Assembly (NCBI RefSeq): GCF_000828085.3
Contig: NZ_JXCA02000023.1
Span: forward strand, 543,233 to 607,232
Length of the DNA stretch: 64,000 bases
Direction of reading: 5' to 3'
Source of the DNA: Scytonema tolypothrichoides VB-61278
Lineage (GTDB): Bacteria > Cyanobacteriota > Cyanobacteriia > Cyanobacteriales > Nostocaceae
A program made the translations under genes and the position numbers. Shown here one piece after another: positions 3,797 to 29,535 of the stretch (position 1 is its first letter; every line of letters starts with the position of its first letter). The notes beneath the pieces were generated by a model. It saw nothing but the letters and a program-made list of their open reading frames with translations, made no database searches and was not told the DNA's origin.

Positions 3797-4684
3797 TTAG
3801 CGTGTACCTACAGGTTGAACCTCTCTGGCTAAACCAATATGTGCTAACGATAGTGAGATATCCTTATACTTTATCCCAGCGAAAGCCCACTGAAGCTCAA
3901 GTGTTCCTACCCAAAAGCGTGCTCGATCAATAACTTCCGATAACATTGGATAGTCACTTTCCATACGTCGCACAATTCCTTCACCGTAATTTCCGATTTG
4001 CACAGCAATATCGCAAGCTGGGTCACCTAAACCAGCAGTACCAAAATCGATAACACCGCTAATGCTTTCTGACACAGAATCAAACAGGATATGATACACA
4101 GCCATATCGCCATCAATAAGTACAGGCGTATAACTCAGATCAAGTTCGCCTGTAATTACGGGCGCAAACAATTCGTGTATCCAAGTTTGCTGATGACGCC
4201 ACAGGTGTGGAAAGAGAGTTTCCTGAACTTGCTCGTACAACTCCAACCAATCTTCACGGGAACGCGCAGCACCAGAGGAAGGCACCTCAGCATTAACTAA
4301 AACTTCATTTGGGATGCTGTGCAATTGTTGGTGAAATCTGGCTAGCTGAGAGATGATACGCGCTTGTGATGCTTCACTCAGCTTCAGCAGGGTGTTACGC
4401 GAAAGCGGTTCACCTTTAATAAATTTGTAGCTGACAAAGCCAACTTCTTGATGTTCAAAGTGTGGAACTCGCAAATCAACATAGTTTCGCACCACTTCCA
4501 ACACCATTACTTCATGGGAAAGAACCTCTTTTGCCCAATCATCTTTAGCAAAGCGACATACAAGGTCATGATTAACAACTACCAACACGTTAACCATGCC
4601 ATCTTGATTAAAGTCCAGATGCTCAAAAGAGATATTAGGGTAGACAGCACGAATTTTTTCGAGATACGAGGAAGGAATATTCAC
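3797..4684 (-). CDS. Aminoglycoside phosphotransferase (APH/choline kinase fold) family protein
   Basis: This is an APH-fold small-molecule kinase of about 295 residues. The N-lobe has VCRFAKDDWAKEVLSHEV (ATP lysine region) and the C-lobe has LIDGDMAVYHILFD and GVIDFGTAGLGDPACDIA, the latter holding the metal-binding Asp (about D213). The catalytic loop keeps its Asp (about D193), but the usual His of HxD is Asp (about D191) and the usual Asn is His (about H198). His at the latter place occurs in some APH(2'')-type enzymes. A longer frame begins at 4714. I chose GTG at 4684 because AGGAG sits exactly 5 nt upstream, whereas the earlier TTG and ATG have no such site. Substrate unknown; antibiotic resistance should not be assumed. 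Confidence 0.8.
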   Translation of the reverse strand: MNIPSSYLEKIRAVYPNISFEHLDFNQDGMVNVLVVVNHDLVCRFAKDDWAKEVLSHEVMVLEVVRNYVDLRVPHFEHQEVGFVSYKFIKGEPLSRNTLLKLSEASQARIISQLARFHQQLHSIPNEVLVNAEVPSSGAARSREDWLELYEQVQETLFPHLWRHQQTWIHELFAPVITGELDLSYTPVLIDGDMAVYHILFDSVSESISGVIDFGTAGLGDPACDIAVQIGNYGEGIVRRMESDYPMLSEVIDRARFWVGTLELQWAFAGIKYKDISLSLAHIGLAREVQPVGTR

Positions 4685-4876
4685 AGTAACTCCTAATGTC
4701 ATTACAACAAACAATCAGGATTAGTCGGACATTTAGCCCGATTGCAGCGACTTAACTAATTTGCGTGTTTGTTGTATCAACGTACCATTGTGATTTAACT
4801 CCCTAGAACATCGCTACAGATAAGTGTAGCACCATTTTACGGACGGCAAATATCAATACTGGCTGCTGCTTCGTGA

Positions 4877-6028
4877 TTAAAAAAGATTTTTTAAAAACCT
4901 CAGTAACCTCTGCCCAATAGAAAATGTTTTCTTGCTTACTCTACCTTGATTCAAATCTGACAGAGAAGGAAATGCAGCAGACTGGGCATAAGGACCTTTT
5001 CGCAACACCTCAGCTAAGGCGTTATTTTCTTCTCGCAAACCTTCATAGAAAAAGAAAACTTCTCCAGAAATGCCACAAGCACGGTTATACTCAATAGCGT
5101 GCAATAAGTCCTCTGAACTTATCCGGTAAGAACCAACTTTCATCAAAATTCCTGGTGCTAACTTCGATAGCGTAGTATCTGTAAATTGCTCGTTTACTAA
5201 TTTATCAATAATGTTTTTATAAGTGAAGAAATCACGGCGATAGATTTGGGGATGGATAATATCTACAAGCCCTCGTTGCAACCAAGTAGGCGAGTCTTGC
5301 AGGTATTCTTTATATGCCCAGTCATGAATATTCGGAGTTATTGAGATTAACTGGTTAGAATTAATCGCTTTGACTTCTTGATAAAGACGGGCAAGAAATT
5401 CAGTGAGAATATCAGCACGCCACTGCAACCATTTTCCATCCTTGAAGTTTTTTGGTGGATCTTCACCAAACTGCTGACGATAGCGTTCCACAGTTCCTGA
5501 GTCATAGCCACCTTCACTGGGCAATGCAGGCAAGCGGTCATCACCTTGAATACCATCTACATCGTAATTTCTTACAACTTCCAATATTATATTTAACATA
5601 AAATCTTGAACTTCTGGATCAAGAGCATTCAACCACTCAAAACCATTTTTTTTCAGCAAGTTCCCCTCACGATCACGGGCAGCCCATTCAGGTTTTTTTG
5701 CCAGCAATTTTCCACCATTTAAATTGTAGGAACTGGCGAATCCATATTCAAACCAAGGAATGATTTTTAATCCCACCCGTCGCGCTTCTGTAACAACTTC
5801 CGCCAAGGGATCCCGTCCTACAAACTGTGGGTTGATTTCTGTATCAAAGGTTTGACGCATCAATTGACTTGGATACATTGTCGCCCCCTGATTCCAGACA
5901 ACAGGGAAGACGACATTAAATCCTGTCTCGGCGAGGAAATCCATAGCTGACGCAATGTTTTCTCGGGAATGGAAAACTTTGCTATCTGTTGTGGTTAGCC
6001 AGACACCGCGTATTTCTACTTTTGCCAT
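4877..6028 (-). CDS. GHL10-type (DUF4015/YngK-like) family 10 glycosidase
   Basis: A 383-residue TIM-barrel protein of the glycosyl-hydrolase-like family 10. It starts with the characteristic EIRGVWLTTTDSKV, then has FNVVFPVVWNQGATMYPS, GLKIIPWFEYGF and the active-site region VDGIQGDDRLPALPSE. No signal peptide is visible, so it is probably cytoplasmic unless exported by another route. The last 40 residues are basic and may be an extra tail. It lies 7 bp downstream of the DUF1206 gene on the same strand, so the two are probably one transcript. Members of this family act on or near cell-wall polysaccharide, but the substrate here is unknown. Confidence 0.85.
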   Translation of the reverse strand: MAKVEIRGVWLTTTDSKVFHSRENIASAMDFLAETGFNVVFPVVWNQGATMYPSQLMRQTFDTEINPQFVGRDPLAEVVTEARRVGLKIIPWFEYGFASSYNLNGGKLLAKKPEWAARDREGNLLKKNGFEWLNALDPEVQDFMLNIILEVVRNYDVDGIQGDDRLPALPSEGGYDSGTVERYRQQFGEDPPKNFKDGKWLQWRADILTEFLARLYQEVKAINSNQLISITPNIHDWAYKEYLQDSPTWLQRGLVDIIHPQIYRRDFFTYKNIIDKLVNEQFTDTTLSKLAPGILMKVGSYRISSEDLLHAIEYNRACGISGEVFFFYEGLREENNALAEVLRKGPYAQSAAFPSLSDLNQGRVSKKTFSIGQRLLRFLKNLF

Positions 6029-6035
6029 GCACTTT

Positions 6036-6851
6036 TCAACGTGTGACTACCTGACGATAACGTGCCTGAATCACCATGTAAACACCATAAGCAATTAAAC
6101 CCAGTGCCACGATACCCAAAAGCCAAGGACCTAATGGTTGTTGTGCTAGCGTCTGTAACACCTTACCTAAACCTCCTGCTTGTCTAGCGTCAGACTGAGT
6201 TGCTGCTTGAATCAAAAACCAGCCAGTAATGCAGAAGACTATCCCTCGGGCTACTAAACCAAATCTAGAAATACCTATTACTAACTTGCGTTCTGAATCG
6301 TCCAATTCATTCAAATTTAAGTTTCTCAGAAACTTACTACTAAAGGCTTGATAGAACTGATAGAAACCCAAACCAATAACAAACGCTCCCACAGTACCAA
6401 CTAACCATTGACCAAATGGCTGAGAAAGTAATCTTGCTGTCCAATCTTGTCTGGAGTTACTGTTACCACTACTGTTAGAACCGAGGACTATCTGCACAGC
6501 ACTCAAAGCAATACCAGCATAGACCAAACCATTGATGACATAACCAACTCGCTGTATTAAGCCTTTAGCATCTGTGCCTTTATTTTCTGGGTCGTTTATT
6601 GCCTGTACAAAACGAAGAATAACGTATCCAATTAGTCCAATTGCTACTAAAGCTAATAGAAACTCTCCAAATGGCTGATTGACAATTTCCTGAAGAGCGC
6701 CTTCAGTATCAGTCATTTTACCACCACTGCCAAATGCTGCTTGCGCTGCCAATAGTCCAACGATCGCGTAAACTATTCCTTTAGATATATAACCAAATCT
6801 GGCTAGTCTTTCAATCCATAAAGAATGATGATGTGTTAGTTGCTGTGTCAT
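6036..6851 (-). CDS. DUF1206 integral membrane protein
   Basis: This 271-residue protein is made of three tandem copies of a two-helix membrane unit (about residues 15-85, 100-175 and 195-265), the arrangement of DUF1206. Each unit opens with a pattern like RFGYISKGIVYAIVG or RFGLVARGIVFCITG and ends with a second hydrophobic helix after QPFG/QPLG. It has no known activity. It is the first gene of a likely two-gene unit with the downstream glycosidase (7-bp gap). The 203-bp spacer upstream is shared with the divergent hydrolase gene and is AT-rich. Confidence 0.88.
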   Translation of the reverse strand: MTQQLTHHHSLWIERLARFGYISKGIVYAIVGLLAAQAAFGSGGKMTDTEGALQEIVNQPFGEFLLALVAIGLIGYVILRFVQAINDPENKGTDAKGLIQRVGYVINGLVYAGIALSAVQIVLGSNSSGNSNSRQDWTARLLSQPFGQWLVGTVGAFVIGLGFYQFYQAFSSKFLRNLNLNELDDSERKLVIGISRFGLVARGIVFCITGWFLIQAATQSDARQAGGLGKVLQTLAQQPLGPWLLGIVALGLIAYGVYMVIQARYRQVVTR

Positions 6852-7054
6852 AAGACTTTAATTTAATCATGGCTAATTATTTACCAGATTTTCTCTTAAA
6901 CATACATCTACCAAGAGAAGAATTATCAATCCCTGAATTAAGAATGCTTGAAAACTGATTTTCTTTTCAAGTTTTTATTTCATATGGATAATTTTCAGAT
7001 ATTAGTTATTATTAATACTTGTATTGAGAGTTGCGTTCTTGAAGAGTATAAATT

Positions 7055-7921
7055 ATGTCTGTACTAGAAGGTTCATGGGAGCACAAGTATATCACTGCAA
7101 ACGGCGTGAAATTGCATTACGTTACTCAAGGGAATGGTCCTTTAATGGTAATGTTGCATGGATTTCCTGAGTTTTGGTACTCGTGGCGGCATCAAATACC
7201 AGAATTTGCCCAAAACTTTAAAGTGGTTGCCCTTGACTTGCGTGGCTATAACGATAGCGAAAAGCCTAACAAGCAGTCAGTTTATGTGATGGATGAATTT
7301 GTCAGAGATGTTGAGGGTCTTATTAAGGGATTAGGATACGAAAAATGTATTTTGGTGGGACATGATTGGGGTGGTGCGATCGCCTGGAATTTCGCTTACT
7401 CTCATCCCCAAATGCTAGACCGTTTAATTGTACTTAATCTGCCTCATCCCGCTAAATTTGCTGAAGGCTTACGCACTCCTCAACAGTTGCTACGTAGCTG
7501 GTATATGTTCTTTTTTCAATTACCAGGAATACCGGAATTTCTCATACAATCCTTAGACTATCAACTCATTGAAACTGCTTTTCAAGGTATGGCCATCAAC
7601 AAAAGCGCTTTTACGCAAGCGGATATCAACGCTTACAAAGATGCTGCCGCAAAACGTGGTGCCCTGACAGCAATGTTGAACTATTATCGCAACATTTTTC
7701 AACAGAGAATAGTTAATCAAAATTGGGGCGTTTTGGAAGTACCAACGTTGATGATTTGGGGAGAAAATGATACTGCCCTTGGCAAGGAATTAACCTACGG
7801 CACTCAAGCTTATGTGAAAGATTTTCAAATCAAATATATTCCTAACTGTAGCCATTGGGTACAGCAAGAACAGCCTCAATTAGTCAATCAGTACATACGA
7901 GAGTTTTTGAGAGAACATTAG
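7055..7921 (+). CDS. Alpha/beta hydrolase, soluble epoxide hydrolase-like
   Basis: This 288-residue protein has the complete signature of epoxide-hydrolase-type alpha/beta hydrolases. HGFP at residues 35-38 forms the oxyanion hole. The nucleophile is Asp104 in GHDWGG, the acid is Asp239 in WGENDTALG, and the base is His267 in CSHWVQ. Lid tyrosines that activate the epoxide are plausible at Y150 (SWYMFF) and Y210/Y211. An Asp nucleophile fits epoxide hydrolases and also haloalkane or fluoroacetate dehalogenases, so the substrate is not certain. It is transcribed away from the DUF1206 gene and stands alone. Confidence 0.88.
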   Translation: MSVLEGSWEHKYITANGVKLHYVTQGNGPLMVMLHGFPEFWYSWRHQIPEFAQNFKVVALDLRGYNDSEKPNKQSVYVMDEFVRDVEGLIKGLGYEKCILVGHDWGGAIAWNFAYSHPQMLDRLIVLNLPHPAKFAEGLRTPQQLLRSWYMFFFQLPGIPEFLIQSLDYQLIETAFQGMAINKSAFTQADINAYKDAAAKRGALTAMLNYYRNIFQQRIVNQNWGVLEVPTLMIWGENDTALGKELTYGTQAYVKDFQIKYIPNCSHWVQQEQPQLVNQYIREFLREH

Positions 7922-8024
7922 TTAAAATGATGAAAATCAACTTTTTGAGATGAGATACCAGCACATACATTGTTCATCAGGTAGACGAAGAAATTAATGC
8001 TAGCCAGAAAGCTAGCAATTTTCC

Positions 8025-10214
8025 TCAAACTACCTGATAAACAAAACTAAGACTTGCCCAATGATTCACATCCAACACATAGGAATCAGTCGCTGTAATG
8101 TTCATGTCGTTAACTGCACTGGCATTATGCAAATCTTGTAGAACAGCTTGTGCGACTTCTAGGGGGTTTATCAAGGGCTGAATGCGGTGCTGTTCTGCTT
8201 TGGGATACTTAGCAGCTTCTAAAGCAGCAAGAGACAGGGTAAAAGGTGCAGTACTAAAAATAAGTTGGGTTTCACTTAAGGAAGTTGGTGCTTGCACAAC
8301 CCATTCAAAACCTGAAGTCGTTTGTGGTACTGCCAAAGTCTCCCCTGGAAAGACGACTATATCTTTGAGAAGTAGTTTGACTTGCGATGAGTCTGGTTGA
8401 GTATCCTTGTACCAGGGCAGCAGGGCGATCGGAGTTCTACTGCTATTTAATGCTAGCAGCATCAGATAAACAGGGCGCGAGCTCTTGTTTTCCACTCGAT
8501 ACTGTATCTTACTGCCAAGGCTGACAGTGGGAATATCACCAAGTTCAGGATTGAATGACTTATTATTTGATGTTTCAGTGCTTTGAGTTCGCACAGTTTC
8601 TCGTTGTATGAGGGAACGAGGTGTTAGAGGGCTGATTACCTCTAATGTTGCCCTAATCCCCAAGCGAGAAGATCCTGTATTTTCTGTTAGTCGCCATAAC
8701 TTTGCCGCCAGTAAAGTTCCTAATTTTGGTTTTAACCGCTGCGCAGCCACCTTCACTGCTTCTCTCGCTTCTCCAGTAGTGCTTGGAATTAACTCGCCAC
8801 CAACAGAAAATAAACCGTAAGGAGTGGGAGACACGGCTGTAGAGTTTGTCGCGGCTACATCTTTGTTGTTCGCTTCAGGTACTCTCCCAAACACATAATC
8901 TGCTGATTGTTCTCCGGTGACTACGCTTAATACATGGGTGGCGGTTGCAAAAGCACTTGTTGCATCTACTCGTTCAATTCTTTCGAGTCCATTCAAGGCG
9001 ATTGTTAAACCAACATTTCGGGGTATTACTCGTACAGTTTCCTGAACAAGTTGTCCGACTTGGGGAGAAGTTGTACCATCAGAACTAAAAATTTGTGCTT
9101 TGGCTGTCAACCCAGCGCGCGATCGCAACGCCAGATGTATATTCGATCCTTCTTTTGTAATAACTGTAAGTCGTGAATTGACTCCGTAGTATGCCAATAC
9201 TTGTAGAGGTAATCCTCCCAGCCACAGTAGGATTGTTTTCCCATCATCCTCCACTCCTGTAACCACTCCTTCTGCACACGTGCTGTCTGGGAGCAAAATA
9301 TCTCCAATCGGTGTACGAGAAAGCTGATTCTTGCTATCTAGCAATAAAGCTGGCTGCTGTTTGGTACTACCCAACTGCTGAATAGAACCTCCCACATGAG
9401 ACAAACAGACTCGAATTGTTGTTGTTGGTGTGGTTTCCCATAAGTACTGGGTTAAGGCATAGGTAAAGAATCCCGCACTAAAACCAGACAACTGTCCTTC
9501 CCTTGCCAATTCCTTGGGGGTAGAGGTTGCGCAAAGCACAATGACTGACTCTTCACTAGAAACTTTTTCTTGTAGCTGTTTTTGCAACTCAAGTTCTTCT
9601 GGTAAGAGGATAGCTTGTTCTGGTTTTGGGAGGGCGCGAATTCGTAGGTTTGTTGGTAAGGAGTTCGAGGGAGTATAGTAGCTTGTATCTAACACTGCTG
9701 CTACATGGTTTGTGGCAAGCGATCGCAACATGAGCAACAGTGTGTCTTCTAATAAATAGTTGACATTTTTACTTTCTTGTAAATCTGTCTCATTAAATAA
9801 AACAAGAGCGTTTTGCTCTGTTTCCTGCATTTCTAATTTGACACGACTGCCATAGCCACTATAGTGGAAGAAAACGACATCATCAGGTTTAGCTTGCTTA
9901 ACCAGATGCTCGAAAAAAGTCGTCTCAATGGCTTTTCTTGTCGCTTGTTCATTAGTTAACGAGATAATATCAGACGGATGGAAACCAAAGCGGTGAATCA
10001 AAAGTTCTCTTTGTAGTTCCACATCAGTTAGACAACCGCTCAAAGCTGGAGATTGTGGGTACTGATTGATACCAACTAATAAAGCCAACTTACGCGGTGC
10101 AGATTGTGCAAAAGCTTGATAGTAGCGGCTTCCTAATGTCAACCACCCAGTTTCAATCGCACTCAACACCGCGAATATAGAACCAAAACTTTGTAAAAAC
10201 GTTCGCCGCTTCAT
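8025..10214 (-). CDS. Tat-exported caspase-fold protein (pseudo-orthocaspase) with DUF4384-like C-terminus
   Basis: This 729-residue protein starts with a twin-arginine-like signal (MKRRTFLQSF, then a hydrophobic stretch), suggesting export. A caspase/metacaspase p20-like domain follows (about residues 41-260), with LALLVGINQYP, LSGCLTDV, FFHYSGYGS and AVLDTSYY. In active orthocaspases the last two motifs carry the His-Cys pair (SGHGS, DxC); here they are Tyr121 and Ser178, so normal Cys protease activity is not expected. Such Tyr/Ser variants are known in cyanobacteria. The C-terminal third has a DUF4384-like segment (about 570-660; YLMLLALNSSRTPIALLPW). It may act as a scaffold or sensor; that is inference. 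The gene is flanked on the left by a 100-bp spacer and on the right by sat. Confidence 0.85.
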   Translation of the reverse strand: MKRRTFLQSFGSIFAVLSAIETGWLTLGSRYYQAFAQSAPRKLALLVGINQYPQSPALSGCLTDVELQRELLIHRFGFHPSDIISLTNEQATRKAIETTFFEHLVKQAKPDDVVFFHYSGYGSRVKLEMQETEQNALVLFNETDLQESKNVNYLLEDTLLLMLRSLATNHVAAVLDTSYYTPSNSLPTNLRIRALPKPEQAILLPEELELQKQLQEKVSSEESVIVLCATSTPKELAREGQLSGFSAGFFTYALTQYLWETTPTTTIRVCLSHVGGSIQQLGSTKQQPALLLDSKNQLSRTPIGDILLPDSTCAEGVVTGVEDDGKTILLWLGGLPLQVLAYYGVNSRLTVITKEGSNIHLALRSRAGLTAKAQIFSSDGTTSPQVGQLVQETVRVIPRNVGLTIALNGLERIERVDATSAFATATHVLSVVTGEQSADYVFGRVPEANNKDVAATNSTAVSPTPYGLFSVGGELIPSTTGEAREAVKVAAQRLKPKLGTLLAAKLWRLTENTGSSRLGIRATLEVISPLTPRSLIQRETVRTQSTETSNNKSFNPELGDIPTVSLGSKIQYRVENKSSRPVYLMLLALNSSRTPIALLPWYKDTQPDSSQVKLLLKDIVVFPGETLAVPQTTSGFEWVVQAPTSLSETQLIFSTAPFTLSLAALEAAKYPKAEQHRIQPLINPLEVAQAVLQDLHNASAVNDMNITATDSYVLDVNHWASLSFVYQVV

Positions 10215-24519: not shown

Positions 24520-25281
24520 TTAGCGCTGTCGCCAATCTAACTTGCTTCCAACCAACCAAAAGGTCAACAGGGAAAATCCTACCAAAGCAGTCAAATCAAC
24601 TACCAGTTGCCCAGTCATCGTTCCAAATAAAGTTTGTCGAAGAGCAGATGCAGCGTAGGTTGCAGGACTCAACCGTCCTATGTATATTACGATATCGGGT
24701 AAACGGCTTTCTGGGATGATGACTGGACCAATAAATAGCATCAGCATCGTTACAAGTAAACTGATGGATCCGCTTTCTTCTGGTGTGCGAGCATTTGTCC
24801 CGATAAATGCACCTAGTCCAGCAAGAGGTAGCACACACAACGGAATAATCAGTATAATTACTGGGTTTAGACTAACTGAAAGCTTGAGGAACAAGATACC
24901 AAACCCTAGGATGCCTAACAGTGCTGGTAAGGAAAGTAGAAAAAATGATAGGACTGATGCAATAATTAAAGCTTCTCGGCGAATGGGTAAAGTGGCATAG
25001 TATTCTAATGTGCCAGAAAACCGCATATAAGCAAACCGAGATGCCATTTTATCTAAGTTACCGAACATCAGCGTCATCACAAGATTACCAGTCAAAATGT
25101 ATCCCAGTGTTTCCTGTCCAGTTCCTTGAGCAAAGCTACCAAGGGCGATGATACTTAGCATTGGAGCAACTAAACTTGTAAGAATTATTGCTTGCCATGA
25201 CCAACGCCAGTTTGTCAACTCCATGAAAAACAAGTCCACGAGTTGGACAACAAAAGACGGTGGATTACGGTTGTTGTGCAT
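24520..25281 (-). CDS. ABC-2 type transporter permease
   Basis: A 253-residue membrane protein with six hydrophobic segments, typical of ABC-2 exporters. It begins MHNNRNPPSFVVQLVDLFFMELTNWRWSW and has the ABC-2 coupling region GTLEYYATLPIRREALI. It overlaps the end of the ATPase gene by 17 bp, so the two are translated together. The transported substrate is unknown. The architecture matches drug/lipid exporters of the DrrB/NodJ group. Confidence 0.87.
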   Translation of the reverse strand: MHNNRNPPSFVVQLVDLFFMELTNWRWSWQAIILTSLVAPMLSIIALGSFAQGTGQETLGYILTGNLVMTLMFGNLDKMASRFAYMRFSGTLEYYATLPIRREALIIASVLSFFLLSLPALLGILGFGILFLKLSVSLNPVIILIIPLCVLPLAGLGAFIGTNARTPEESGSISLLVTMLMLFIGPVIIPESRLPDIVIYIGRLSPATYAASALRQTLFGTMTGQLVVDLTALVGFSLLTFWLVGSKLDWRQR

Positions 25282-26173
25282 AATGCAGATACAAATCTTC
25301 TAGGGTTGCTGAGTAGAGGCGAAAGTCATCCACCTTGTCCAAATTTAGAGAATTGAGAGTAGAAGTGACTTGGTTCCATTCCAATAACACCTGCCAGTGA
25401 CCTGCTTGCAAGGAGATGAAGGTTAGATGAGATGGTAAGATGGGTTGGTTTTCTGGTGAAAAAAAGAGTTCTAAGCGTAGCATACGGTCAACTTGCTGCT
25501 TGAGTTCACTAGGACGACCGACTGCAACTAATTCTCCAGAACGCAAAATACCCACTCGCTGGATTGCTTTTTCTGCTTCAATCGCATCATGGGTAATGAG
25601 AATAATAGTGGTGCCCTGTTCCTGATTGATACGGCGCAAATTATCCCAAACCAACTTGCGACGTTGGGGATCAAGGTCATTTGTGGGTTCATCTAGTATT
25701 AGCACAGGTGGTGAACCTGCCATTGCTACAGCTAACCTGAGTAATCGCCTTTGTCCACCAGATAGCCGAGAACTCGGTTTGTGACGTAGTTCTTGAATTT
25801 GCCAGAAATTTAGTAAAGCATCACACTCTTTACGAGCATTGTTGCGGCTCATCCCGCGCAAATGAGCAGTAAAATAAAGTGACTCACCCACTGTCAAATT
25901 GTTGAGTGCGCCGCTTTCTTGGGGCATATAACCGATATTCATTTGCACGAGATGGGGGGCTTTGATGATATTTTGTCCGAAGAAAGCGATCGCTCCACAA
26001 TCAATAGACAACAAGTTCACCATCTGGCGTATCAACGTACTTTTGCCTGCCCCGTTATCGCCCAAAATACCAAAGATTTCACCCTGATAAATTTGGAGTG
26101 TAATGTTCTTGTTGGCAGGTTCGGTTTGTCCTGGATAAGTTTTGACTAAATTTTGAATATCGTAGACAATCAA
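25265..26173 (-). CDS. ABC transporter ATP-binding protein
   Basis: A roughly 302-residue ATPase with Walker A GDNGAGKST, Q-loop YMPQESG, signature LSGGQRRLL, Walker B LILDEPTNDLDP and the switch His in ITHD. It pairs with the permease that overlaps its 3' end. The open frame begins at ATG 26188, but GGAGG overlaps that ATG and lies 8 nt upstream of TTG 26173. The TTG start gives a typical N-terminus (M-IVYDIQNLVKTYPG). That TTG also overlaps the stop codon of the small Pnkp-like relic (TTGA), an arrangement suited to translational coupling. Confidence 0.9.
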   Translation of the reverse strand: MIVYDIQNLVKTYPGQTEPANKNITLQIYQGEIFGILGDNGAGKSTLIRQMVNLLSIDCGAIAFFGQNIIKAPHLVQMNIGYMPQESGALNNLTVGESLYFTAHLRGMSRNNARKECDALLNFWQIQELRHKPSSRLSGGQRRLLRLAVAMAGSPPVLILDEPTNDLDPQRRKLVWDNLRRINQEQGTTIILITHDAIEAEKAIQRVGILRSGELVAVGRPSELKQQVDRMLRLELFFSPENQPILPSHLTFISLQAGHWQVLLEWNQVTSTLNSLNLDKVDDFRLYSATLEDLYLHYAQQP

Positions 26174-26298
26174 GAATAATTCCTCCATACAAAACTGATA
26201 TTTCCTTTGTGCTTCTTTCTTTGGGCGAAGATTGATTTACCAAAACCCGAAGCACCTGTGAGGACAATCAGGGAAAGTTCAGGAATTGTCAGCTTCAT
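26170..26298 (-). pseudogene. pnkp: Relic of polynucleotide kinase-phosphatase (Pnkp), P-loop N-terminus only
   Basis: A 42-codon frame reads MKLTIPELSLIVLTGASGFG then KSIFAQRKK before losing similarity. From memory of the family, this matches the start of bacterial Pnkp, the RNA end-healing kinase/phosphatase, including an intact P-loop (GASGFGKS; usually GASGSGKST). The other 800 or so residues expected of Pnkp are missing. It starts 15 bp after the LRR gene stop, and its TGA overlaps the TTG start of the ABC ATPase. It may be only a relic, or it may still be translated as a coupling leader. The identification should be checked by protein search. Confidence 0.65.
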
Positions 26299-26313
26299 CT
26301 CACTTGTAGAAAC

Positions 26314-27912
26314 TTATAGAACGTAACCAACATGCGCATTTAGGGCATATTTTTTCAATTCAGGACAAATCTGTGGATTTCGGGCAAGAAAGTTGTCAAT
26401 AATAGCAGTTATCTTCTCTGGATAGTACATTTGCCAATGTCCTAAGCCATGTAGAGCACTTTCTTGACAAGCAGTGGAATCAAGTAATAGAGTTTTTTGC
26501 ATGACATCGATAAATTCCTCGTCCATCTCTTGATACATCGGCTCATCTGGATGACCGTACCAAGGGAAGATATCCCACCACATATAACAAACGCTATTAA
26601 GAGGATTTGCATTGGGTTCGTCAAGATGCGATAGGTGAGGTGAGCATCTTTGAGCAATGCACTTTTCAAATAAGGTGAAAATCGAGCGAATACACCGTTG
26701 CCTATCTGACCAAGGCACGCCATTGTCCAGCTGTAGCAGTGAGAATATATGATCCGAGCAGGAATTGTTAATCAAATAGTACAAGCCTTGATTTAATTGG
26801 GCGTCAGAAAAAGGTTGGAAGACTTCCTGAGGGTTTTCAAAAACTTTGGTCATGTATGCAACGGTCACTTCTGGTTGAACATCCCAAAGCCAATCTTCGC
26901 TGTCCTGCCAATACCATGCAGGTTCGGTAACTGGATGGTCAAAGAGATATTTGACCCAATTCTCAAAGCTGATGTCAATTGGTTGTTCGTCTGAAATTTT
27001 TATCGTTGTGTTCTTCAGAGATTGCAGCGGACTTTCCTCAACAACAGGATTTTTGCTTAGATCGAGGAAAGTCAAGTTTGTGAGAAATTGTAATGGAGTG
27101 ACATCAACAATTTGATTTTCATTGAGGTAGAGAATAGAAAGATTGGTGAGGAACTGTAATGGGCTGCAATCAAAAATTTGATTGGCGCTGAGGTTAAGAC
27201 AAGTGAGTTTCTTGAGGTTTTGCAGTGGAGTGAGATCGGAAATTTGATTTTGTGATAAGTCAACTTTGGTCAGGTTAGTTAAAGATTGTAACGGACTCAA
27301 ATCAGAAACTTTTTTGCCGTAAAGATTGAACAGATGCAGTTGAGTTAGGTTGATGAGAGACGATAGAGGACTGAAGTCAGAAATTTGATTATTTACAAGT
27401 TTTAATTCTGTCAGATGTGTCAGAGATACTAGCGGACGTAGGTCAGAAACTTGAGTGTTACAAAGTTCTATCTTAGTTAAGTTAGGCAAAGATGCTAGCG
27501 GACTCAAGTCAGAAATTTGCTTTCCAACAAGTGAAATAGTGGTGAGATTTGTCAAAGATTGCAACGGACTCAAGTCAGAGATGCTAATGCCACTAATATC
27601 TAGTTCAGTGAGATTCTTTAGCGATCGCAGCGGACTCAAGTCAGAAATTTGACTTTCGCCGGTTATACTAAGGCTAGTTAACTGGGTGAGACACTGTAAT
27701 GGACTCAGATCAGAAATTTGCTCATTATAAATGTTAACTTTGGTAAGACCTGCAAGCCCCTCTTGGGCTTCCTGGCAATCAGAGGTGTAAGCGACCTCCT
27801 CTAACAGCACCTCTACTGTGTGCCTCGCCTCTGGAGAAAGGCTGTCTTTATGTAAACACCAGTCAGCAAAGCTGCTGAAATCGGTGGTTTGGTTTGCTTT
27901 TATCTCGGACAT
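26314..27912 (-). CDS. Leucine-rich-repeat protein with unassigned C-terminal domain
   Basis: A roughly 532-residue protein with about eleven 22-residue internalin-type LRR units (about residues 55-300), each built on NLTxLxLxxNQISDLSPLQSL. The regular curved solenoid suggests protein binding. The remaining 220 residues are Trp/Tyr-rich and helical, with WYWQDSEDWLWDV, CYMWWDIFPWYGHPDEP and ALHGLGHWQMYYPEK; I do not recognise the fold. No signal peptide is seen. ATG 27912 is chosen because AAGGA lies about 9 nt upstream; a longer frame from 27948 lacks such a site. The gene sits between a Hen1 relic upstream and a Pnkp relic downstream, all on the same strand. Confidence 0.85.
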   Translation of the reverse strand: MSEIKANQTTDFSSFADWCLHKDSLSPEARHTVEVLLEEVAYTSDCQEAQEGLAGLTKVNIYNEQISDLSPLQCLTQLTSLSITGESQISDLSPLRSLKNLTELDISGISISDLSPLQSLTNLTTISLVGKQISDLSPLASLPNLTKIELCNTQVSDLRPLVSLTHLTELKLVNNQISDFSPLSSLINLTQLHLFNLYGKKVSDLSPLQSLTNLTKVDLSQNQISDLTPLQNLKKLTCLNLSANQIFDCSPLQFLTNLSILYLNENQIVDVTPLQFLTNLTFLDLSKNPVVEESPLQSLKNTTIKISDEQPIDISFENWVKYLFDHPVTEPAWYWQDSEDWLWDVQPEVTVAYMTKVFENPQEVFQPFSDAQLNQGLYYLINNSCSDHIFSLLQLDNGVPWSDRQRCIRSIFTLFEKCIAQRCSPHLSHLDEPNANPLNSVCYMWWDIFPWYGHPDEPMYQEMDEEFIDVMQKTLLLDSTACQESALHGLGHWQMYYPEKITAIIDNFLARNPQICPELKKYALNAHVGYVL

Positions 27913-28083
27913 AACAATATTTCCTTCTGAAATAACCACGAAGGTCAACTAATAGTAAAAATCCCTATCTGCCCAGAAGAACTAACTTCTGCATCTTCCA
28001 CTCATATCGCTTGAAACTGCACTGTGTAGCCGAAGCGTTCTCCAACTGGCTTTGCGCAAATTTGGAATTCTTAGTGCGTCGAT

Positions 28084-28326
28084 TCAAAGCAGCAACGGGC
28101 GATCGCTCACGTATTGTTCCAGATTTGTACCGCATCCACACACCAACTTCACTAGATCAACATCCAAAAGTAGCGTCACAGTGCATCGTTGCTCATTTGC
28201 TTCTGGATAGAAAACGTGCGCTTGTCCAAACGAAAGAGGAAAAGACTGACAACGATCTGGGTGTTTATGCAGTAAGTACCCTAAATCTGTAGCTGGATAA
28301 TATGTGGTTGTAATTGACAGTAGCAT
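28084..28326 (-). pseudogene. hen1: Relic of bacterial Hen1 (3'-terminal RNA ribose 2'-O-methyltransferase), N-terminus only
   Basis: An 80-codon frame reads MLLSITTTYYPATDLGYLLH, then KHPDRCQSFPLSFGQAHVFY, PEANEQRC, LLLDVDLVKLV and LEQYVSDRP before a stop. From memory, this is the start of the bacterial Hen1 N-terminal domain (Hen1_L), which usually reads like ATDLGYLLHKHP, SFGKAHVFYPE and QYVNDRPY. Full Hen1 is around 460 residues with a C-terminal methyltransferase; that part is absent. Hen1 and Pnkp normally form one RNA-repair operon, and a Pnkp relic lies 1.8 kb further on the same strand. A small frame on the other strand (28011-28292) is a shadow. Confidence 0.72.
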
Positions 28327-29119: not shown

Positions 29120-29275
29120 TTAGTCTTGTTCCAAAAAATCTGCAAATAAAGCTTTAATGTCCGTAACTGGAATCAAAGCTATAAAATCATTCAAGTCGTC
29201 TTGCAACGTACCACCAACAACTTTCTTTAATTCGTTTTCGGAAAGTTCTTCCAAGTCTTCAGTAATTTGAAACAT
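29120..29275 (-). CDS. Double-glycine leader peptide 2 (bacteriocin/pheromone-type precursor)
   Basis: A 51-residue product with a 22-residue leader MFQITEDLEELSENELKKVV-GG in the classical double-glycine pattern (LSxxEL..VxGG), cut after Gly-Gly by C39 peptidase ABC exporters. The mature part would be about 29 residues, acidic and amphipathic, ending DIKALFADFLEQD. ATG 29275 fits the leader better than a start at 29305. It follows a similar gene by 38 bp. No C39-type exporter or modifying enzyme is present in the window, so maturation would depend on genes elsewhere. Confidence 0.75.
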   Translation of the reverse strand: MFQITEDLEELSENELKKVVGGTLQDDLNDFIALIPVTDIKALFADFLEQD

Positions 29276-29313
29276 GTTCTTTTGTTTTTTAAGTAAAAGG
29301 TACAAGCAAAAAA

Positions 29314-29535
29314 CTAACTATTGCCAAATAAATCTCTCACAAATTGCTCTATTGCTTCAACGTCAATACCCAAGTCTTTTAGTCTTTGACGTAGATTGTC
29401 TATCTCAGACGAACCACCCACAACCTGCTGTAATTCTTCGTTCGACAATTCGTCAATTTGGTTGTCTGACTGTAATTCAGTGATTTTGATGTTATCCACA
29501 AGACCTTTAAAGTTTGTAAAGTTCATTTTTTCCAT
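29314..29535 (-). CDS. Double-glycine leader peptide 1 (bacteriocin/pheromone-type precursor)
   Basis: A 73-residue product with a long leader ending IDELSNEELQQVVGG and a mature part of 32 residues (SSEIDNLRQRLKDLGIDVEA to VRDLFGNS), acidic and helical. It shares the leader rule and an aromatic amphipathic tail with the next gene but little else. Met4 (29526) may be the real start because GGAAAAA precedes it. It is 160 bp downstream of the MFS exporter on the same strand. Whether that exporter, which has no peptidase domain, plays any part is unknown. Confidence 0.75.
   Translation of the reverse strand: MEKMNFTNFKGLVDNIKITELQSDNQIDELSNEELQQVVGGSSEIDNLRQRLKDLGIDVEAIEQFVRDLFGNS

Follow-up and report, generated by a model that had tools for sequence, protein, structure and literature searches.

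The stretch analysed here, called the window throughout, comprises 64,000 nucleotides (nt) of the Scytonema tolypothrichoides VB-61278 genome (contig NZ_JXCA02000023.1, positions 543,233 to 607,232), in which an intact gene for a leucine-rich repeat (LRR) protein lies between remnants of hen1 and pnkp, the two genes of the Hen1-Pnkp RNA-repair operon. Both remnants are on the same strand, with hen1 upstream of pnkp. A first-pass annotation had taken the frame at 28084-28326 for the N-terminus of Hen1, the frame at 26170-26298 for the start of Pnkp and the frame at 27912-26314 between them for a complete LRR gene, in the order and direction of the known system and in decay. The features are listed below; G004 and G005 are other genomes of the same genus, and E is the expect value.

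28087..28326, minus strand: hen1 remnant, codons 1-80, with a stop at 28084-28086; matches PF12623; 90% by blastn to the intact hen1 of G004, the match ending at 28087.
27945..28088, minus strand: hen1 remnant, codons ~415-461 and the natural stop, out of frame with the N-terminal piece and holding two in-frame stops; tblastn 66% over 47 residues; blastn match to G004 from 5302.
26314..27912, minus strand: intact LRR gene, 532 residues; PF12799 (LRR_4) at E 5.5e-38; a gene 88-90% identical over the shared parts lies between intact hen1 and pnkp in G004.
26317..26988, minus strand: C-terminal domain of the LRR protein, ~220 residues, all helical by AlphaFold2, without a Pfam or NCBIfam model.
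26223..26298, minus strand: pnkp remnant, codons 1-26, including the start of the P-loop; matches TIGR04075; tblastn 81% over codons 1-26; blastn match to G004 ending at 26223.
26173..26222, minus strand: junction stretch, unmatched by blastn in the seven relatives compared; the match to G005 restarts at 26172.
25265..26188, minus strand: ATP-binding cassette (ABC) transporter ATPase gene, next after the lost part of pnkp; PF00005 at E 1.1e-29.

Protein searches against the Hen1_L and Pnkp models matched both stumps significantly. The frame at 28084-28326 aligned to positions 1-82 of 242 of Hen1_L (PF12623; E 2.8e-32), the first third of the domain, as well as to TIGR04074 (E 2.7e-31) and to the solved Hen1 fragment PDB 4dqz (E 4.2e-23); its last three codons, at the breakpoint, are unlike those of relatives. 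The frame at 26170-26298 aligned to positions 1-30 of 851 of TIGR04075 (bacter_Pnkp; E 1.9e-6) and gave only weak P-loop matches in Pfam (best E 0.016); its Pnkp identity is settled because tblastn and blastn match the intact pnkp of relatives at the same place. The LRR frame was found as described, with a possible upstream start at a TTG at 27948 (544 residues from there). The first-pass identifications, together with the order, direction and decay of the system, were borne out. Its statement that the N-termini alone remain is slightly off, as the C-terminus of hen1 (codons ~415-461, 28088-27948) is also kept. In place of a full Hen1 with Hen1_L and methyltransferase domains, the window holds codons 1-80 and ~415-461, and in place of the kinase, phosphatase and ligase domains of Pnkp it holds 26 codons.

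Alignment with intact relatives shows that two deletions account for the window locus. The first removed hen1 codons ~81-415, so that codon ~80 (28087) is now followed directly, in a different frame, by codon ~415 (28088); the second removed pnkp from codon ~26 (26223) up to just before the ABC-transporter ATPase gene (26172). The counterpart of the second interval in G005 holds the rest of pnkp and one further gene, DUF1624-like by eye. The genus-wide syntenic outer flank upstream is a major facilitator superfamily (MFS) transporter gene (G001, G003-G006), and the downstream flank consists of ABC genes (G005) or of an SMP30-type and a FAD-type gene (G002, G003), with gene names assigned by eye. 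Profile searches of the window's own genome with PF12623 and TIGR04075 found no second Hen1_L and no near-complete Pnkp: the single Hen1_L match is the hen1 stump, and TIGR04075 matched the pnkp stump and two partial places elsewhere, both far under the cut-off (E 1.5e-14 over positions 9-151 and E 1.2e-8 over 184-324). TIGR04074 matched seven places in this genome, and the other one among the matches listed covers the methyltransferase half only (221-402). An RtcB gene is present.

Comparison of the locus among related cyanobacteria revealed one relative with an intact arrangement. This is G004, within whose contig the Brasilonema sp. CT11 locus L127 occurs letter for letter. In it, intact hen1 (4060-5445), the LRR gene (5442-6656) and intact pnkp (6672-9245) follow one another; the LRR gene overlaps hen1 by 4 nt or begins 26 nt after it, depending on the start chosen, and ends 15 nt before pnkp. 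It has fewer repeats than the window gene (404 against 544 residues from the same upstream start), and both encode an LRR-helical-domain orthologue at the same place. Since the three-gene operon is intact in Brasilonema sp. CT11, the LRR gene is native and not a late insertion. The earlier suggestion that an LRR protein replaced or was inserted into a decayed operon is thus not borne out, insertion after decay being contradicted by G004, and the other suggestion, of a native LRR gene that survived, is favoured both by the G004 operon and by scars in two further genomes.

The first scar is in G005, which has intact hen1 and pnkp without an LRR gene; hen1 and pnkp in G001 and G005 share 90-95% identity with the G004 genes. 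The short gap in G005 keeps the last 14 LRR codons and the stop, with 38 of 46 nt matching, a score reached by none of 20,000 shuffles (best shuffle 28). The second is in G017, from another genus of the same family, where the order is hen1 - AAA_33 - Thg1 - pnkp and an LRR tail stands just upstream of pnkp (31 nt at 93.5%; in a separate search, 75% over positions 5-86 of 87, E 2.7e-8). A 75-nt LRR-tail query against 1.82 Mb of retrieved DNA (E up to 0.1) recovered only copies of the window and G004 genes, G005 and G017, besides 16-17 nt of spacer before pnkp in G001 and G002. When 59 genomes were searched with the tail, seven matched: G000 (the window's own genome), G004, G005 and G017 over the tail, and G001, G002 and G011 over the spacer or the pnkp start only. 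Both scars rest on DNA matches because the family profile for the LRR tail did not report G017 and gave G005 only E 1.3. A candidate third scar in G025 (E 0.43) was dropped, as the family profile lent it no support. A tree of the neighbouring transporter gene, which does not include G002 because the gene is missing from its stretch, has a midpoint root that separates two outgroup sequences from the genus. It puts the window, G004 and G005 on separate branches; the LRR gene is therefore best placed in the ancestor of the genus. These comparisons support the view that the LRR gene is a native member of a hen1-LRR-pnkp operon and able to outlast the repair genes.

The seven genomes of the genus differ widely at this locus. 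In G004, hen1, pnkp and the LRR gene are all kept; in G001 and G005, hen1 and pnkp are both present but the LRR gene is not; G002 keeps hen1 alongside a pnkp with two large internal deletions (L072) and lacks the LRR gene, forming another decaying system; the window keeps the LRR gene alone; and G003 and G006 have repair-gene fragments only. The hen1-pnkp pair at this locus is broken in four of the seven, through different deletions. Because G005 has intact hen1 and pnkp with an LRR scar, the repair genes and the LRR gene were lost separately, and independent loss at this locus is shown within the genus. A decayed locus in G133 (L070, 7075-7677, minus strand) holds a 200-residue chimeric frame that starts as hen1 (codons 1 to ~88) and continues, without a change of frame, as pnkp from codon ~77.

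The LRR frame has no stop in its 532 codons. Between the window and G004, the only two LRR genes that exist for such a comparison, nonsynonymous divergence (dN) is 0.056 and synonymous divergence (dS) 0.277 over 331 shared codons, giving a dN/dS of 0.20; the neighbouring MFS transporter gene gives 0.17. These estimates show that the LRR gene has been under constraint since it diverged from the G004 copy. The 27 differences in the helical domain, polarized by closeness to 30 family members, split 13:12 with two ties and hence show no acceleration in the window copy. The 80 codons of the hen1 stump have a dN of 0.081 against G004, compared with 0.022 between the intact genes of G004 and G001, and changes polarized with 38 intact sequences split 9:3 toward the window side. 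The hen1 tail has two stops and a dN/dS of 0.62 over 42 codons. That the LRR constraint continued after repair-gene loss is only suggested. We consider it very probable that the window preserves a wrecked three-gene RNA-repair operon, hen1-LRR-pnkp, with its middle gene complete.

The LRR protein has two parts, with repeats at residues ~53-301 (Pfam, NCBIfam) and a separate domain in the last 224 residues. The AlphaFold2 model of this domain is all helical (predicted local distance difference test, pLDDT, 94.7), and no HEAT/ARM sequence signature was matched in Pfam; folding of the whole 532-residue protein without an alignment gave a poor model (pLDDT 66), with the LRR part visible. The domain was found in eight of 388 genomes of the order, the window's included, and at 40 loci in genome_contigs, the titles of which name many phyla; the family is widespread, and the searched copies of Pfam and NCBIfam contain no model for it. 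The stretches of 38 of the 40 loci reported no match to the LRR, hen1 or pnkp beside the domain, and the two loci outside that set are L127 (G004's own contig) and L159. Two candidate identities were rejected: a phage protein, as no relative was found in viral_contigs or phages, and a known defence protein, as four proteins scanned gave no PADLOC match. Six plasmid records carry the domain, five as 'hypothetical protein' and one unannotated.

A survey of 129 close neighbours of the family at 34 loci returned, among the families listed (best 25 of 52 and 25 of 80), one RHS protein (L160) and one RtcB (L148). In Rhizobacter (L160:2438-4903), the RHS-repeat gene stands directly upstream of the helical-domain gene, the one toxin-like neighbour seen. 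In a metagenome-assembled genome of Saprospiraceae (L148:5-4212), rtcB, two successive helical-domain genes and a DUF2828/DUF7788 gene form an apparent operon with gaps of 185, 26 and 28 nt. The Saprospiraceae locus is, by its predicted gene content, a second RNA-repair setting for the family. Two RtcB queries found no match in the other helical-domain stretches among the 40 searched, and 27 of 36 helical-domain genomes have RtcB somewhere.

The space between hen1 and pnkp was surveyed at 83 near-complete hen1 loci (>1000 nt aligned; some frameshifted, one genome represented twice), and pnkp followed within the stretch at 69. The gap measured 150 nt or less at 20 of these 69 and more at 49, and 38 gaps held at least one picked frame of at least 75 residues. 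At E 1e-5, and among the best 25 of 54 families, the 63 gap frames matched AAA_33 (13), Thg1 (11), MazE (10), PemK/MazF (4), RlaP (2), TraX (2), HEAT (2) and LRR (1, as LRR_4), and an LRR gene in this position is accordingly rare. Uma2, ion-channel, RTX or TPR genes likewise occur in some gaps. A third HEAT-like gene, outside the 63-frame pick and noted by eye, overlaps hen1 in G041, and in G277 (L248) a DUF6745 gene occupies the gap on the opposite strand. One AAA_33 gap protein that was scanned scores to polynucleotide kinase models too. In many Nostocales the gap holds both an AAA_33 kinase of 149 residues and a 3'-5' polymerase of Thg1 type, as at L075, L077, L083, L088, L091, L101, L102, L103 and L224. 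RlaP and Thg1 are described as enzymes restoring RNA ends in PMC7824862. MazE- and MazF-like gap frames occur together in L220, L222, L229 and L234, and MazE-like frames in L093 and others of the same genus; those of L093 and L220 were confirmed in single scans. By family assignment, the MazE/MazF-type genes of one genus of the order place a predicted RNA-cutting toxin inside an RNA-repair operon. Literature searches retrieved nothing joining Hen1, Pnkp and leucine-rich repeat, and nothing joining Hen1, RNA repair, Thg1 and bacteria.

Some hen1 and pnkp genes are unlinked. Fourteen near-complete hen1 loci lacked pnkp in their stretch, some of them at contig ends, and all eight genomes tested had pnkp elsewhere. 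In G040, G009, G175 and G010 a single contig carries hen1 and full-length pnkp at distances of 0.18 to 3.5 Mb; in G141, G199 and G233 the two are on different contigs, with at least 8.8 kb after hen1 free of pnkp; in G057, the eighth, the contig ends 3.8 kb after hen1. As judged by gene position, the first seven genomes run against the statement in PMC4411300 that the Pnkp and Hen1 genes are always in the same operon.

For the function of the LRR protein, we tentatively propose a cytosolic binding protein of immunity type acting beside RNA repair, a reading that we hold to be rather unlikely. It would have two interaction modules: a horseshoe of ~10 repeats that may recognise a target, and a helical, perhaps HEAT/ARM-like, domain that may recognise a partner. 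In the simplest version, it would block an RNA-cutting toxin whose damage Hen1-Pnkp mends, and an immunity-type block of this kind might therefore give the cell a reason to retain the protein once repair has gone. PMC3482391 names HEAT and LRR proteins among the types of immunity protein. We count in favour of this reading the MazE/MazF, Thg1, polynucleotide-kinase-like AAA_33, RlaP and HEAT genes found in the gap elsewhere, and the helical-domain family beside rtcB in L148.

Several observations weigh against the proposed history or function. An LRR gene of this kind is present in two of the seven genus genomes, with one scar in addition. No toxin partner was found among the neighbours in the window and CT11 or, among the families listed, in the 129 neighbours of the helical domain; the immediate neighbours in the window and CT11 are hen1, pnkp or their parts. 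Foldseek searches of PDB with the helical domain returned mostly ARM/HEAT proteins as best matches, all weak (best E 0.014, template modelling score ~0.3). Three of the nine window-side changes in the hen1 stump are breakpoint codons, and without them the split is 6:3. The first 77 codons of the stump have a dN of 0.053 and a dN/dS of 0.15, below the 0.20 of the LRR gene, the same codons giving 0.023 and 0.09 between G004 and G001. The presence of two stops in the 47 codons of the hen1 tail, when the 532 LRR codons have none, is no more than suggestive, and the LRR dN/dS spans the whole time since the G004 split, part of it with the operon intact.

The strongest rival explanation, to which we give somewhat less than an even chance, is that the LRR gene is an unrelated passenger in the hen1-pnkp gap, kept or not yet lost for reasons independent of RNA. 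The gap often takes in other genes, as the survey shows, some of them of Uma2, TraX, ion-channel, RTX or TPR type; the helical domain was reported without hen1, pnkp or LRR at nearly all its loci; the nearest relatives of the LRR half are LRR-DUF6745 proteins encoded elsewhere in the order, with neighbours that look ordinary by eye; and the case for selection on the LRR gene once repair had been lost is not firm. A passenger fits less well with the tight packing in CT11, with the recurrence of the gene or its scar at this position in two genera, or with the fact that the commonest gap-frame families, among those listed, are of RNA-repair or RNase toxin-antitoxin types.

An improbable alternative is that the LRR protein belongs to the Hen1-Pnkp complex itself, either as an accessory subunit or as a targeting factor. 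The operon-like spacing of its gene between hen1 and pnkp in CT11 would suit such a role, and Hen1 and Pnkp do act as a complex, described as a Pnkp-Hen1 heterotetramer in PMC4411300. The LRR gene is nonetheless present in the window without working repair genes and absent from G005 and G001 with both intact, and a single LRR match appeared among the 63 gap frames in the families listed. Known Hen1-Pnkp complexes work without an LRR protein, and an obligate subunit is disfavoured by the independent losses. That the LRR gene entered after the operon decayed, or that the whole arrangement is an assembly artefact, is very improbable: nothing beyond the rarity of the gene speaks for it, whereas G004 has the intact order with matching flanks and the window is an internal part of a 636-kb contig, in a genome assembled as 31 contigs and 99.97% complete.

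Returning to an LRR protein that acts beside RNA repair, a bolder extension, which we consider rather doubtful, is that the helical domain is a new RNA-damage-response component, recruited separately to hen1-pnkp in cyanobacteria, where it is fused to LRRs, and to an rtcB operon in Saprospiraceae, and that the LRR fusion may still be selectable in the window without repair enzymes. The relatives form a natural experiment, with repair and LRR genes in one strain, repair genes only, the LRR gene only (the window) or neither, a distribution from which it follows that the modules are separable. The usual view of Hen1-Pnkp is of two genes that form a self-contained system. The recurrent gap genes (Thg1, polynucleotide-kinase-like, RlaP, MazEF, repeat proteins) are concrete candidate partners for RNA damage or its control.

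Two side observations concern the edges of the locus. One HIP1 site lies close to the hen1 breakpoint:

28099..28106, no strand assigned: HIP1 site GCGATCGC, 11-18 nt from the hen1 breakpoint.

HIP1 was originally noticed at a deletion in a gene of Synechococcus. Site-specific recombination is mentioned in PMC4390886, a source on HIP1. Full HIP1 sites fell within 30 nt of hen1 breakpoint edges in 3 of 15 cases (random mean 1.35, P 0.14), the core CGATCG in 7 of 20 (random mean 2.5, P 0.008) and GATC in 11 of 21 (random mean 6.0, P 0.014). HIP1 as the cause of the breakpoints was set aside and is left as a hint only. Disruption edges in hen1 cluster (window 28087-28106; relatives' codons 66-88), nine of the 17 edges in the first 242 codons falling within nt 196-271, an interval that makes up 10.5% of those codons and was chosen after the fact, with two edges from one genome. 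Of 87 HIP1 sites in 68 intact hen1 genes, 49 fall in the decile containing this cluster. Upstream of the hen1 stump, two small frames on the minus strand (29120-29305 and 29314-29535) carry stretches that by eye resemble double-glycine leaders (ELSENELKKVVGG, ELSNEELQQVVGG), making exported peptides possible.

Four known systems bear comparison with the locus. Internalin-type LRR models (NCBIfam NF033186, NF033188-NF033190) score the window repeats at E down to 5e-51, but far below the curated cut-offs; the repeat alone is in common, and by eye the window protein lacks a signal sequence. In polymorphic toxin systems, the Imm-LRR and Imm-HEAT immunity proteins (PMC3482391) are stand-alone binding proteins with the same repeat types; the likeness is one of repeat type, and the LRR genes of the window and CT11 adjoin no recognised toxin gene. 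The cytosolic LRR-DUF6745 proteins of cyanobacteria (L039, L040, L041, L048) are alike in N-terminal cap and LRRs, with 50% identity over 311 residues to L041, but end in DUF6745 where the window protein has its 220-residue helical domain, which shows no similarity to the DUF6745 protein compared. The fourth is the Hen1-Pnkp operon of the Anabaena variabilis type (PF12623/TIGR04074 and TIGR04075), which both stumps match in order, direction and sequence. The window differs from it in that the genes of both enzymes have lost most of their length and are separated by an LRR gene, where elsewhere the gap is empty or holds other genes, and on its sequence we take it to be a real case of a decayed hen1-LRR-pnkp operon with a surviving middle gene.

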